The notes beneath the pieces were generated by a model. It searched no databases, had not been told where the DNA came from, and saw only the letters and a list, made by a program, of their open reading frames with translations. Position numbers and translations under genes: made by a program. A stretch of 42,129 nt of DNA, taken from the NCBI GenBank assembly GCA_002110465.1, contig NEED01000072.1, positions 1-42,129 on the forward strand, written 5' to 3'. Every line of letters starts with the position of its first letter. The first letter of the stretch is position 1. Source of the DNA: an unicellular cyanobacterium SU2 (lineage in GTDB: Bacteria > Cyanobacteriota > Cyanobacteriia > Cyanobacteriales > Microcystaceae). Positions 34,878-41,019 of this stretch are shown here, in pieces.

Positions 34878-34885
34878 TTGTGAGG

Positions 34886-36637
34886 TTGAAACAACTATTT
34901 TGGCAAATCAGAAAAACCATACCAGCAGGACTAGGAATTTGGTTATTAGTTAGCCAAGGGACAATGGCATCTCCTAAAGAAAAAATAACTCAGGGTAGTG
35001 ACCTAAATAACCCTGAGACCATCTCTCCCACAGAAGCATTAAGCATTCTTCGTAACCGTCCCCAACCCCCCAATCCCCTTAACCGTGGAACCAGCAAAAA
35101 GTTTACGACTTCAACGTCCCAAGTTACCAGCGTTTCAGAATTACAAGATATATCCCCCACTGACTGGGCCTATGAAGCGTTGCGGAGTTTGGTAGAACGA
35201 TATGGTTGTATTGTCGGTTATCCAGATCGGACTTTTCGAGGAAATCGCCCCACCAGTCGTTGGGAATTTGCCGCCGGATTAAATGCTTGTCTAAATACTA
35301 TTGAAAGACTTTTACAGGAAAATATAGCGGTTTTACGGGAAGATCTTGAAAAACTCAAGAAACTGGCTCAAGAATTTGAACAGGAACTTATTGCTTTAGG
35401 CGCAAGGGTAGATAACTTAGAAAATCGGGTGACTTATCTCGAAGATCATTTATTTTCTACCACCACGAAATTAAACGGAGAAGTGTTGTTTACGACCTCT
35501 GCTGCTTGGGGAGAACGGGCGATCGATTCCCATGAACAGGACTTATTCAATCAAGGATTACTTAATTCAGACGAAAGACGACGGATTGATGACAATGCTA
35601 CTCTAGGTTATCGGGCGCGTCTTAATTTAGATACCAGTTTTACTGAAAAAGACCGCTTGAGAACTCGGCTCGAAACAGGAACCATTATTAACTATTCCAA
35701 CTTTACGGGAACAGATATGGCTCGTTTGGGACACGATATCAATCGAGATTCTAATCTCAGGATCGGAGATTTATATTACCGTTTCTCGGTCAACAATCTA
35801 ACCACTTGGTTTGGTGCGAGTTCCCTAGATATTGATGATATTTTTGATGTGGGAACTCCCTTTTTAGCTAGTTCGGGAACGGGGGCTTTATCGCGGTTTA
35901 TCCGTCGCAATCCCTTAGTTTTTCGTGGACCAGAGGGAATTGGTGGTGGTTTCGCCTATCAATTATTCGATAATCTCCTAAGCGTTAGAGGACTTTATCT
36001 AGCTGACCAAGGGGTTGGTAATGATCCTGCTCTCGGAAAAGGATTATTTAATGGTAACTTTAGCACAGGAGCTCAGTTAGGACTTTATCCTGCCGACAAC
36101 CTTGATTTTACCTTCACCTATCTCCATTCTTATTTTGTCGAGGATGATGTTAATGTCACGTCTAGCAACGGTAGTCAGGTTGCTAAAGATTCCTTTTTAG
36201 AATCTCCGACCCTTCGCGATAGCTATGGTATTCAGGGAGACTGGCGCATTAATGATCGGTTCCACTTGACAGCTTGGGGCGGTTATGCGTTGGCTAGAGC
36301 GCAAGGACTTGATGAGGATGGTAATAGTCGTCGCGGTTTCGGGGCTGATCTTTGGACTTGGAGTGCGGCTCTTTCGGTTATAGACTTAGGAAAAGAGGGG
36401 GCTGTTTTTTCTGTTGGTGGGGGTCAATATGTCACCGCAAGGCGCATTGATTCTTTAGCAGGAGATTTAACTGTTCCTGACCAGGATACTCCTTATATTA
36501 TTGAAACCCAATATAAGTATCCCCTTAATGATAATATTCTCTTAACCCCTGGCTTTTACGTTGTTCTTCGTCCTGAAGCTAATCAACGAATCAATAGTAT
36601 TTGGGTTGGTGCGTTGCGGACTACCTTTAAATTTTAA
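34886..36637 (+). CDS. Iron-uptake porin (SLH/OprB-type, Som-like) 1, 583 aa
   Basis: Outer-membrane channel of the cyanobacterial SLH-porin family. A signal peptide (about 3-29, ending T-M-A) precedes a Pro-rich linker and an SLH domain (about 90-140, with W-A-Y-E-A-L and G-Y-P-D-R-T-F-R-G) that anchors to peptidoglycan. A coiled coil (about 145-185) and a beta-barrel ending T-T-F-K-F follow. Start: GTG 34880 sits only 2 bases after GAGGA, but TTG 34886 gives M-K-Q-L-F-W-Q-I, aligning with M-S-Q-L-F-S-H-I of the downstream paralogue, with an 8-base spacer. I chose TTG. Next to phoU and porin 2. Confidence 0.92.
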   Translation: MKQLFWQIRKTIPAGLGIWLLVSQGTMASPKEKITQGSDLNNPETISPTEALSILRNRPQPPNPLNRGTSKKFTTSTSQVTSVSELQDISPTDWAYEALRSLVERYGCIVGYPDRTFRGNRPTSRWEFAAGLNACLNTIERLLQENIAVLREDLEKLKKLAQEFEQELIALGARVDNLENRVTYLEDHLFSTTTKLNGEVLFTTSAAWGERAIDSHEQDLFNQGLLNSDERRRIDDNATLGYRARLNLDTSFTEKDRLRTRLETGTIINYSNFTGTDMARLGHDINRDSNLRIGDLYYRFSVNNLTTWFGASSLDIDDIFDVGTPFLASSGTGALSRFIRRNPLVFRGPEGIGGGFAYQLFDNLLSVRGLYLADQGVGNDPALGKGLFNGNFSTGAQLGLYPADNLDFTFTYLHSYFVEDDVNVTSSNGSQVAKDSFLESPTLRDSYGIQGDWRINDRFHLTAWGGYALARAQGLDEDGNSRRGFGADLWTWSAALSVIDLGKEGAVFSVGGGQYVTARRIDSLAGDLTVPDQDTPYIIETQYKYPLNDNILLTPGFYVVLRPEANQRINSIWVGALRTTFKF

Positions 36638-36936: not shown

Positions 36937-38706
36937 ATGTCACAATTATTTAGTCATATTCTCAAAGCAACCCCAGGGGTCTTGGGAGTTCTATGTTTGG
37001 TTGCTCAAGGAGCGATCGCTCAAAGCGCGCCTCCGGCGATCGCATCTCCTAAAACCGAGACAGAAGCAAATAGTCTCGAGACGATTAACCCAACAGAAGC
37101 TTTAGGAATTCTACGCAACCGTCCCCAACTAGAAAACCCTGTCAATCGTACTTCTAAGCAGAAGTTTAATACCTCTGCTTCCCAGGTAACTAGCGTTTCA
37201 GAGTTACAAGATGTATCCCCTACTGACTGGGCTTATGAAGCTCTACGGAGTCTCGTTGAACGCTACGGTTGTATTGTAGGTTATCCGGATCGGACTTTCC
37301 GAGGCAACCGCGCCACCAGTCGTTGGGAATTTGCCGCAGGGTTAAACGCCTGTTTGAATACCATTGAACGACTCTTACAGGAAAATGTCGCCGTTTTACG
37401 GGAAGATATCGAAAAACTCAAACGATTAGCCCAAGAATTTGAACAAGAATTGATTGCTTTAGGGGCAAGGGTTGACAACCTTGAAAGTCGGGTAGCTTTT
37501 CTTGAAGATCATCAATTCTCTACCACCACCAAGTTAAAAGGGGAAGTTTTATTTACGGTTTCCTCTGCCTCTGGGGAACGAGCGTTAGATTCGCGCGAAC
37601 TAGATGTGTATAACCAAGACTTGCAAAACGGAAGATACACAGACGCACGGCGACGAATTGATGATAATGCTACTCTTGGTTACAGGGCGCGTCTTAACTT
37701 GAATACAAGTTTCAGTGGGAAGGATCGATTAACCACTCGTCTTCAAGCAGGAACGATTATTAACTACAATAATCCCACCGGAACCAACATGGCAAGGTTG
37801 GGACACGATTCTAACAGTAACTCTGATCTCAACATTGATAACCTATTCTACCGCTTTCCTATCGGGAACCTAACGGCTTATGTTGGGGGTGATTCTCTAG
37901 ATATTGATGACATCTTTGATGTCGGGAACCCCTTCGGTGCGAGTTCTGGAAGTGGGGCTTTATCACGGTTTATGCGTTACGATCCTCTGACGATGCGGGG
38001 TGAGGAAGGCATTGGTGCTGGTTTTGCTTACAAGTTAAGTGATATGTTCACCGTTCGCGGGCTTTATCTAACCCCTGATAATGAAGGTAGTAATCCTCAA
38101 CTCGGAAACGGTTTATTTAATGGTAACTTCAGTGCAGGGGGTCAACTTGGATTTTATCCAGCGGATAACTTGGCGTTCAATTTCCAATTTGTACACACTT
38201 ACTATAAGTTTGATGATGTTAACATCACAGAGAGTACCGGTAGTGCTTTAGCCAGTGATCCTTTCTTAGGTGCGCCGACTATTCGGGATAGCTATGGTGC
38301 AAATGGTAACTGGCGCATCAATGATACCTTTAACCTAACCGGTTTTGTTGGTTATGCCCTCGCTCGCGCCCAAGGACTTGATGAAGATGGCGTAAGTCGT
38401 CGCGGTTTTGGGTCTGATACCTGGTCTTGGATGGCTGCCCTGAACGTTGTTGACGTTTTTAAAGAAGGATCTGTGTTTACCATTGGTGGTGGTGCCTTGA
38501 GCCATACTCAACGGGTTGATGCCATTACTGGAGATTTGCAGGTTCCTGACCAAGATACTCCCTACATCATCGAAGCTCAATATAAGTATCCTCTGAGCAA
38601 AAACATTCTCCTAACCCCTGGTTTTTATGTCATTCTTCAACCTGAAGGCAACAATGACAATAACAGTATTTGGGTTGGGGCGTTACGGACTACCTTCAAA
38701 TTCTAA
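36937..38706 (+). CDS. Iron-uptake porin (SLH/OprB-type, Som-like) 2, 589 aa
   Basis: Tandem paralogue of the preceding porin with the same plan: signal peptide ending A-I-A before Q-S, S-P-T-D-W-A-Y-E-A-L SLH domain, coiled coil, 16-strand-type barrel and terminal aromatic T-T-F-K-F. The SLH and coil regions are nearly identical between the two, while barrel loops differ (for example the stretch after G-E-R-A). That suggests duplication with divergence or gene conversion at the 5' half. HIP1 octamers sit in the signal-peptide coding region. Own promoter (36800-36829), strong terminator (38750-38795). Confidence 0.95.
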   Translation: MSQLFSHILKATPGVLGVLCLVAQGAIAQSAPPAIASPKTETEANSLETINPTEALGILRNRPQLENPVNRTSKQKFNTSASQVTSVSELQDVSPTDWAYEALRSLVERYGCIVGYPDRTFRGNRATSRWEFAAGLNACLNTIERLLQENVAVLREDIEKLKRLAQEFEQELIALGARVDNLESRVAFLEDHQFSTTTKLKGEVLFTVSSASGERALDSRELDVYNQDLQNGRYTDARRRIDDNATLGYRARLNLNTSFSGKDRLTTRLQAGTIINYNNPTGTNMARLGHDSNSNSDLNIDNLFYRFPIGNLTAYVGGDSLDIDDIFDVGNPFGASSGSGALSRFMRYDPLTMRGEEGIGAGFAYKLSDMFTVRGLYLTPDNEGSNPQLGNGLFNGNFSAGGQLGFYPADNLAFNFQFVHTYYKFDDVNITESTGSALASDPFLGAPTIRDSYGANGNWRINDTFNLTGFVGYALARAQGLDEDGVSRRGFGSDTWSWMAALNVVDVFKEGSVFTIGGGALSHTQRVDAITGDLQVPDQDTPYIIEAQYKYPLSKNILLTPGFYVILQPEGNNDNNSIWVGALRTTFKF

Positions 38707-38922: not shown

Positions 38923-39909
38923 CTACACCCAAAAAGCAAAAGCGGCTAATCCCACAAACGAAACAGGAACCAACCATCGTAGGGTTTCATCTAAGCCTAA
39001 AGCTAACAAAGGATACCCCTCAGAAACTAAATTAATGCTTGTCACTGACTCTACCAAAGCGATAAAGACTAATAACATTGCCCCGACAATCACCTTATCC
39101 TCTGCGGTTAAATAGTCCATACGGGGTAACTCTTGGCGCAACACAAATTGATAAGTAATTAAACTAACCATCGTGGCCGTGGCTAGGGTAATTTGAGGAA
39201 TCACTTGGGAAGGGTCTAACCAAAATACCAAGTCAGACATAAAAACAATCAGAGCAACCGGAAACAGCACTCGCCACGCATAAAAACTCGAATACCGTTT
39301 AACTTGAATGCCATAATCAAAACGGGCATAATATCGCTGTTCTGGCTTAATATATTGGGAGTGACTCTCAGTCGTAATCCCTTCAATTGACCAATTGACC
39401 AACGAAACCTCTTCCCCAATTCCATTGAGATGTTCCCCCGCCACAAAGGTGATTTCTTTTGGGGAATAAGAAAAAGACATAATTTCAAGTTTGAGCAGTT
39501 GTTCATCAAAAGGAAATCTTTTTAAATCAAGATGAGCCGCAAATTCTCCATGAAACCGTTGTCGATATGTCACCATTCCCTCAGAATTAATTTCCACGAT
39601 TTCTTTAAATTCTTTGGTCAATTGACGTTGGTTAATAATGTGGATATTGGGATGCCACACCTCATCAAGCTGTTGTTGACAAGAGTTGAGATGGCGATCG
39701 CACATTAATTGAGCCAGTCGGGGATCATACCATTGCAATCCTAAATAAAAATCAATAATAACGCTTTGCTCAACTTCATTAATTTTGGCAATGTCAAGGG
39801 TATAGATTCCTACAGAAATCTCGGTCGGTTCTTGATTTTGGTTAGGTCGGGGGATAGTTCTAACACGGGGAATAACCCAATGGTTAGTCTTGTCTTGGGT
39901 GAGATCCAT
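38923..39909 (-). CDS. Prokaryotic pentameric ligand-gated ion channel (GLIC/ELIC-like Cys-loop receptor family), 328 aa
   Basis: Homologue of the proton- or amine-gated channels GLIC and ELIC. The extracellular beta domain (1-205) has W60-x-D62-x-R64-L65, V-W-H-P-N-I (84-89, GLIC I-W-I-P-E-I) and the Pro-loop R-F-P-F-D-E-Q (131-137) without the eukaryotic Cys pair. Four helices follow: M1 211-231, M2 236-257 (T/S/V-rich pore), M3 272-292, M4 308-327. C70 and C77 are unusual. No signal peptide is visible and the frame closes 7 codons upstream, which is odd because this domain must be exported. Ligand unknown. Divergent from the synthase-like gene. Confidence 0.88.
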   Translation of the reverse strand: MDLTQDKTNHWVIPRVRTIPRPNQNQEPTEISVGIYTLDIAKINEVEQSVIIDFYLGLQWYDPRLAQLMCDRHLNSCQQQLDEVWHPNIHIINQRQLTKEFKEIVEINSEGMVTYRQRFHGEFAAHLDLKRFPFDEQLLKLEIMSFSYSPKEITFVAGEHLNGIGEEVSLVNWSIEGITTESHSQYIKPEQRYYARFDYGIQVKRYSSFYAWRVLFPVALIVFMSDLVFWLDPSQVIPQITLATATMVSLITYQFVLRQELPRMDYLTAEDKVIVGAMLLVFIALVESVTSINLVSEGYPLLALGLDETLRWLVPVSFVGLAAFAFWV

Positions 39910-40188
39910 TGGTATGGTGAGTAACGATTACATTTTCAGAGTTTGTTGACTTTTAATTTCATTGGGGACAACGAGTTATCGTGATCTTAATTAGATCGAC
40001 TCAATCCCCCGAAAATATCTACTTAAGGCAATTTTTGTTTAACCGTAATACAATAGACAGCATCTTTATGTAATGGCCATCTTCGTTATATCTAACATGA
40101 TAAATACCAATTTTTCCGTTAGTCAGGAACTTCATAATAGTTTAGTGGGATCTCTCAGATAAGTAGGTGTATGCTATTGCTTAAATCG

Positions 40189-40199
40189 GTGTGAGGAGT
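40189..40199 (+). promoter_or_regulatory. Ribosome-binding site identical to the full complement of the Yfr1 core
   Basis: GTGTGAGGAGT is the exact complement of the 11-base Yfr1 core ACUCCUCACAC and contains the Shine-Dalgarno GAGGAG, 8 bases before the ATG at 40207. A chance 11-base match is expected about once per 4 million positions per strand, although Shine-Dalgarno enrichment raises that. Confidence 0.5.
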
Positions 40200-40206
40200 T
40201 AAATGA

Positions 40207-41019
40207 ATGAATTTACGAAATAATGCCTTAAAGATTCTCAAGGAAACCAGTCGAACGTTCTACATTCCCATTAGTCGCCTTCCAGACAGACTACAAGAGG
40301 CCGTTGCCTCGGCCTATCTGTGTATGCGGGCGATTGATGAAGTTGAAGATCATCCCGAACTGGATAACTTTACTAAAGCCAAGCTCTTGCGCCGCATGAG
40401 TCTCAATTTACAGTCGGGGACGGAAAATGCCAGGATCGACGATTTTTCAGTGGGACTAATGCCCTATAATGCTGTCTTACCTGATGTCACCTTACGCATG
40501 GGAGAATGGGCTTTATTGGCTCCTGACTCTATTGCTCCTCGTGTTTGGGATGCCACAGCAGCGATGGCTGATCGCATGGCTTATTGGGCTGAGAATAATT
40601 GGACGATTCGCACTGAAGCCCATTTAGATCAATATACCTTTAGTGTGGCTGGCGCGGTAGGGTTACTGTTGTCTGATTTGTGGACTTGGTATGATGGAAC
40701 CCAAACAAACCGAACTTATGCCATTGGCTTTGGTCGAGGGCTACAAGCGGTTAATATTGTTCGTAATCATCGTGAAGATCTGCGGCGTGGGGTGAATTTC
40801 TTGCCCCAGGGATGGCGAGAACAAGATGTCCACCAATATGCTCGCCGTAACCTTAAGTTGGCTGATTATTATACTAAGTCCTTGCCCCCAGGACCTGCTT
40901 TAGATTTCTGCAAAATTCCTTTAGCTTTGGCTTATGGAACCCTAGAGGTTATGGCTTTGGGTAAGGAAAAACTCAGCCGTAGTGATGTTATTGCTTTAGT
41001 ACAGCAAGTCACTCGTTAA
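40207..41019 (+). CDS. Squalene/phytoene synthase-family protein with altered second Asp motif, 270 aa
   Basis: Head-to-head prenyl synthase fold. The first motif R-A-I-D44-E-V-E-D48 is intact. The second, normally D-x3-D, reads N187-H-R-E-D191 within N-I-V-R-N-H-R-E-D-L-R-R-G, so one Mg-binding Asp is Asn. The R-R-G-V-N-F-L-P-Q-G-W block is as in family members. At 270 aa it is shorter than typical CrtB (about 310). It may be a squalene or hopanoid-type or other prenyl synthase rather than phytoene synthase. An overlapping short out-of-frame ATG (40203) precedes the start; the UUCG-loop terminator follows at 41056-41085. Confidence 0.85.
   Translation: MNLRNNALKILKETSRTFYIPISRLPDRLQEAVASAYLCMRAIDEVEDHPELDNFTKAKLLRRMSLNLQSGTENARIDDFSVGLMPYNAVLPDVTLRMGEWALLAPDSIAPRVWDATAAMADRMAYWAENNWTIRTEAHLDQYTFSVAGAVGLLLSDLWTWYDGTQTNRTYAIGFGRGLQAVNIVRNHREDLRRGVNFLPQGWREQDVHQYARRNLKLADYYTKSLPPGPALDFCKIPLALAYGTLEVMALGKEKLSRSDVIALVQQVTR

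Follow-up and report, generated by a model that had tools for sequence, protein, structure and literature searches.

The mRNA of a squalene synthase gene (sqs) is very probably targeted, directly and across many genera, by the small RNA Yfr1, which would block ribosome binding to it as part of an envelope regulon. The gene and the predicted pairing site were found in the window, i.e., the whole stretch of 42,129 nt analyzed here:

40188-40199, + strand: 12-nt stretch GGTGTGAGGAGT, predicted to pair with Yfr1 and including the Shine-Dalgarno AGGAG (40194-40198)
40207-41019, + strand: sqs, squalene synthase of Sll0513 type, 270 aa, PF00494; predicted target

The window holds a single copy of the 11-mer GTGTGAGGAGT, at + strand positions 40189-40199, and it appeared in none of 100 dinucleotide shuffles. 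An earlier note on this DNA had described it as an 11-nt complement of the Yfr1 core, and this was borne out and even extended, since the G at 40188 lengthens the match to 12 nt, all complementary to the home yfr1 (ACTCCTCACACC) and located where translation initiates. The note had also placed the Shine-Dalgarno of the downstream gene within the match, and AGGAG is indeed found there, ending 8 nt 5' of the ATG at 40207 that opens the 270-aa ORF. The 82 contigs of the home genome (5.24 Mb) hold 11 copies of GTGTGAGGAGT, versus one copy of the reversed pattern. One of the 11 is yfr1 itself, and among the other 10 a start codon within 20 nt downstream (ORF longer than 40 aa) was observed only for sqs and a rodA-like gene. 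The extended pattern GGYGTGAGGAG-N4-11-ATG has a single occurrence in this genome, before sqs. The copies at L009 and L011, near position 1501, are followed by a common TTGGNGTCGAAAC, with no long ORF downstream.

The product of the target gene matched PF00494 (Pfam SQS_PSY) with 88.7 bits against a cut-off of 26. Among six families, TIGR01559 squalene synthase was the best, though its score of 74.4 bits was under the NCBIfam equivalog cut-off of 286.75. The naming as sqs is thus based on orthology to the Synechocystis gene and not on TIGR01559, and by this orthology we assign 40207-41019 to the squalene synthases of the Synechocystis Sll0513 type. The earlier reading as prenyl-synthase-like can thus be made more precise. 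Orthologs from the genus Synechocystis showed 71-77% identity to the home product, a comparison made at the level of the genus. In Synechocystis sp. PCC 6803, sll0513 encodes a squalene synthase of 277 aa, a length in agreement with the 270 aa found here, and the deletion strain had no detectable squalene, according to the portions of PMC3953072 consulted. The home genome holds two PF00494 genes, sqs and a second one read as CrtB-like, together with a squalene-hopene cyclase gene, making a hopanoid route plausible; the leader of the cyclase gene had no strong Yfr1 match (−13.4 kcal/mol). In this squalene synthase family, the second Asp-rich motif opens with N (NIVRNHRED), where the human enzyme has D; the N was present in 114 of 114 matched loci, with duplicates counted and no match obtained at 11 of 125 loci. 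Divergent from sqs, at 38923-39909 on the − strand, lies a homologue of pentameric ligand-gated ion channels (Neur_chan_LBD and Neur_chan_memb).

The earlier note had proposed locating yfr1 with its core in the same genome, and one full-length Rfam match was found, with 56.1 bits against a gathering score of 38, upstream of a thioredoxin gene. Among 59 genomes searched, the home genome being one of them, 58 had a yfr1 match, 56 of these above the cut-off, and ACTCCTCACACCA was conserved in all 51 copies read and TTCACTCCTCACACCAC in 49 of these. The same pairing stretch was present in the Yfr1 of all eight Nostocaceae genomes queried. The Microcystis-like genome G012 (99% complete) yielded no yfr1 by two model searches or an exact 20-mer, and the core was present in four genomes of its genus. 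A two-strand fold predicted that the 12-bp duplex forms while both Yfr1 hairpins stay intact.

The pairing with the leader, suggested in the same note as a calculation, gave −23.9 kcal/mol for the 12-bp duplex and an opening cost of +4.2, for a total of −19.7. A change of CCUC in Yfr1, made in silico, left the home duplex with −9.7. Genes were then ranked by duplex plus opening energy, always with the home Yfr1 stretch and with Yfr2 competition outside the energies, in samples covering 0.44 of 5.24 Mb for the home genome, with 0.2 Mb taken from every other one. In the home sample sqs was first, with none of 338 genes as good. Similar results were obtained with three genomes carrying the same Yfr1 stretch: the Nostocaceae G377 (sqs −15.2, 0 of 125 sampled genes as good), G018 of the genus Synechocystis (−13.7, 0 of 136, with one gene better by duplex alone) and G043 (−16.9, 0 of 149). 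In G012, sqs reached −14.8 and one of 152 genes was as good, and this rank was left out as support because no yfr1 was found there. This first ranking admitted GTG and TTG starts, so false starts are possible; when it was repeated in the home genome with ATG only (353 genes), the same first four genes were obtained, in the order sqs (−19.7), AMIN-amidase (−16.4), M23 peptidase (−14.1) and OprB porin (−12.2). The following ranks, at −11.5 and weaker, showed no clear gap and included genes with no evident envelope role, e.g., a short-chain dehydrogenase. When sqs leaders from outside Nostocaceae were compared with shuffled ones, 45 of 73 lay below the 1% quantile and 28 did not.

Orthologs of sqs were found in 49 of 59 genomes at E ≤0.001 (G036 and G051 weakly) and, in a phylum-wide draw, in 79 of 386 genomes at 1e-50. 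Leaders were read from 81 genomes, covering the 79 phylum hits in part and Nostocaceae with eight genomes and the named loci. In the home family, GTGAGGAG was observed within 30 nt of the sqs start in 12 of 13 genera, or 32 of 37 genomes; for the remaining families outside Nostocaceae the figures were 15 of 26 genera and 20 of 36 genomes. This makes 52 of 73 genomes and 27 of 39 genera outside Nostocaceae, counts that are inflated by the relatedness of the genomes; the remaining 12 genera lack it before sqs. In many outlying orthologs GGAG is kept and the extension is absent. The genus Synechocystis has GTCAGGAG instead of GTGAGGAG, and its leaders carry a different single internal mismatch to Yfr1, GGTGTCAGGAGT, in four of four genomes; G190 has lost the stretch kept by its genus-mates.

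A column analysis anchored on AGGAG covered 34 of the 39 genera, as five without AGGAG were dropped. Information content was 1.3, 1.1 and 1.6 bits in the three columns 5' of AGGAG and 0.8 and 0.6 bits in G columns −6 and −5, while the distal columns from −22 to −12 were near random (0.0-0.3 bits). Further raised columns were −11, −10 and −8 upstream and +5, +7 and +8 downstream, the last with 1.3 bits. Collectively, these data showed that the sqs site is conserved in orthologs beyond the Shine-Dalgarno, with the exceptions given above. The column opposite the A of Yfr1 is C in 16 of the 34 genera and T in 14, and a C there means an internal mismatch in the duplex for about half of the genera. 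This split is the main result against a simple Yfr1 reading. The exact 11-mer is often replaced by GGCGTGAGGAG, with one A-C mismatch to Yfr1. Eighteen of 21 relatives of this form carry that 11-mer once only on either strand, at sqs; a further copy, as a sign of another perfectly complementary RNA, was not found in these 18, and no other perfectly matching RNA is therefore apparent. G014, G015 and G016 had one additional copy each. The form was also kept before sqs in G012. In the sections of the Prochlorococcus literature consulted, a UCCU change in the Yfr1 core abolished the footprint on ppa, which fits with GAGG being near-invariant and the mismatch position being tolerated at sqs.

In Nostocaceae, GTGAGGAG was found before sqs in none of eight genomes. 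RNAduplex on these leaders gave two blocks instead, an upstream GTGGTG(TGA) and a GGAGTGA over the Shine-Dalgarno, which pair with adjacent Yfr1 stretches and leave an mRNA loop of about 11 nt between them. The duplex reached −21.8 or lower in seven of the eight genomes and only −11.8 in G359. Among 57 named loci (L066-L122, for the most part Nostocaceae), both GTGGTG and GGAGTGA were present in 38, always with a spacing of 14 nt (38 of 38); four carried GTGAGGAG, and 15 had neither arrangement, four of these pairing weaker than −12. These loci are close relatives, and the counts overstate their independence. Conservation of the 11-mer beyond GAGGAG, another point of the earlier note, thus held across many genera, against distal flanks that are not conserved; the exact 11-mer, however, is often replaced by GGCGTGAGGAG, and Nostocaceae have a split site.

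The motif could be just a strong Shine-Dalgarno, with the Yfr1 match as a by-product of the anti-Shine-Dalgarno likeness of the core. AGGAG itself is conserved and well spaced, GGAG stands without the extension in many outlying orthologs, and G012 retains the motif with no yfr1 found, all in agreement with this explanation. Yet conservation includes the GTG and GG that precede AGGAG, bases with which the 16S tail, the anti-Shine-Dalgarno, does not pair. In addition, among 910 sampled ORFs from five genomes, AGGAG was placed 4-12 nt before ATG in only 37 and extended with GTG to GTGAGGAG in three, sqs being one of these. Control leaders of the same genomes were mostly without the motif: AGGAG or GTGAGGAG was found in none of 28 trxA leaders (31 loci given, 28 read), and for rodA, which had a match in 48 genomes with 30 loci fetched, GTGAGGAG was seen at two of 30 loci (home and L286), as judged by eye from the leaders. 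The Shine-Dalgarno-anchored columns and both controls make a plain Shine-Dalgarno insufficient, and we regard this explanation as unlikely. The home rodA-like gene, with its perfect 11-mer, had been considered as a second target and was set aside, with GTGAGGAG kept at only those two rodA loci.

Another RNA, a protein or a DNA element below the promoter might read the motif, its commonest form GGCGTGAGGAG then being the true consensus. The C/T split opposite the A of Yfr1 and the motif of G012 would suit such a reader. Against it are the sole genomic copy of GGCGTGAGGAG at sqs in most relatives of that form, the fixed place relative to the start codon, and the Yfr1 complementarity that most Nostocaceae retain in a different arrangement, so that we consider it very improbable. 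It is even harder to believe that the sqs mRNA acts as a sponge that titrates Yfr1 while sqs itself is hardly affected. The perfect 12-bp duplex is strong, and Yfr2 is described as sequestering Yfr1 via a nearly complementary motif (PMC6778093, in part), but the Yfr1 array signal in Synechocystis is high, beside that of the SRP RNA, in the part of PMC3516471 consulted, and an enzyme mRNA would be unlikely to reach such abundance.

Under the preferred reading, direct targeting of sqs by Yfr1, the single-stranded core (ACUCCUCACACC, between two stem-loops) would pair with GGUGUGAGGAGU of the sqs leader, cover the Shine-Dalgarno and exclude the ribosome. Reduced sqs translation would then repress the synthesis of squalene and hopanoid precursors within the Yfr1 envelope regulon, and Yfr2 would relieve this, as for published Yfr1 targets. 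The presence of yfr1 and the conservation of the site support the block of translation put forward in the earlier note; that both RNAs meet in the cell and that the effect is repression is inferred. The site should also be part of the transcript, and a candidate promoter element was found upstream:

40170-40175, + strand: TATGCT, candidate −10 element

Of the 27 genus representatives having GTGAGGAG, 12 have a TATGCT whose end lies 15-17 nt upstream of it, and the TATGCT of the window would start an RNA near 40183, about 5 nt before the pairing site. A scan for sigma-70 consensus promoters gave nothing on the + strand and did not list this element.

Further candidate Yfr1 sites were found before other envelope genes, among them a tandem pair of porins in the window:

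34880-36637, + strand: first SLH-OprB porin of the tandem pair, weaker site GTGCGAGGA before start
36937-38706, + strand: second SLH-OprB porin of the pair, GGTGTGAGGA before start, ranked fourth among 353 home genes

Together with sqs, this makes three predicted Yfr1 sites within about 6 kb. The AMIN-amidase gene (L264:16070-17086, − strand) and the M23 peptidase gene (L260:2046-2681, + strand) have strong Yfr1 complements before their starts and are further candidate targets. In G012, where no yfr1 was found, a SpoIID-domain gene (L328:9856-10992, − strand) has TGTGTGAGGAGT before its start. The ranking is blind to function, yet ranks 2-4 resemble the target classes published for Nostoc and Prochlorococcus, as far as described in the portions of PMC6974561 and PMC6778093 consulted. 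Tentatively, Yfr1 may be an envelope-wide coordinator in Cyanobacteriales, acting on hopanoid precursors, peptidoglycan remodelling and porins. The sqs pairing would have survived a switch in site layout: most genera have one contiguous site spanning the Shine-Dalgarno, and most Nostocaceae a split site whose halves pair with neighbouring stretches of Yfr1 around a looped-out mRNA spacer.

Yfr1 belongs to the small set of sRNAs that almost all cyanobacteria retain (PMC6778093, PMC2190773), and its chief role is still being worked out. We found no literature linking it to squalene, hopanoids or isoprenoids, in line with the earlier note, which knew of no link to an isoprenoid gene. The terms squalene, phytoene, hopan-, isoprenoid and terpen- are absent from the main text of PMC6974561 (Table S1 lay outside this search), as are squalene, phytoene, isoprenoid and prenyl from that of PMC6778093. 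The parts of PMC3953072 consulted mention no sRNA regulation of sll0513, and partly consulted literature naming both Yfr1 and phytoene draws no link between them. The sll0513 and Yfr1 literature did not overlap in our search; a listing by locus tag is possible in the Nostoc target table or the 2010 target paper. Most likely, sqs adds a new target to those of this known sRNA. If true, this would tie Yfr1 to membrane lipids, beyond the cell wall and porins, and offer a testable sRNA link to squalene and hopanoid levels that would be useful for terpenoid engineering in cyanobacteria.

The proposed pairing can be compared with known systems, the sources being taken in part. In Nostoc sp. PCC 7120, Yfr1 targets include mraY, murC, the OprB-like alr4550, the Omp85 gene alr2269, amiC2 and others, and 10 of 11 tested targets were repressed (PMC6974561). 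As at sqs, the invariant Yfr1 core pairs there mostly just upstream of the start codon, and envelope genes are common to that target set and the top home ranks. In Prochlorococcus MED4, the targets are the porins PMM1119 and PMM1121, and ppa; a PMM1121 5'UTR reporter was repressed by Yfr1, with Yfr2 as antagonist (PMC6778093), so the same core acts there on different target genes. The sqs of Synechocystis PCC 6803 (sll0513) is likewise a short squalene synthase, beside crtB in the gene set (PMC3953072), and the Synechocystis-genus leaders, unlike the home one, have one internal mismatch to Yfr1.
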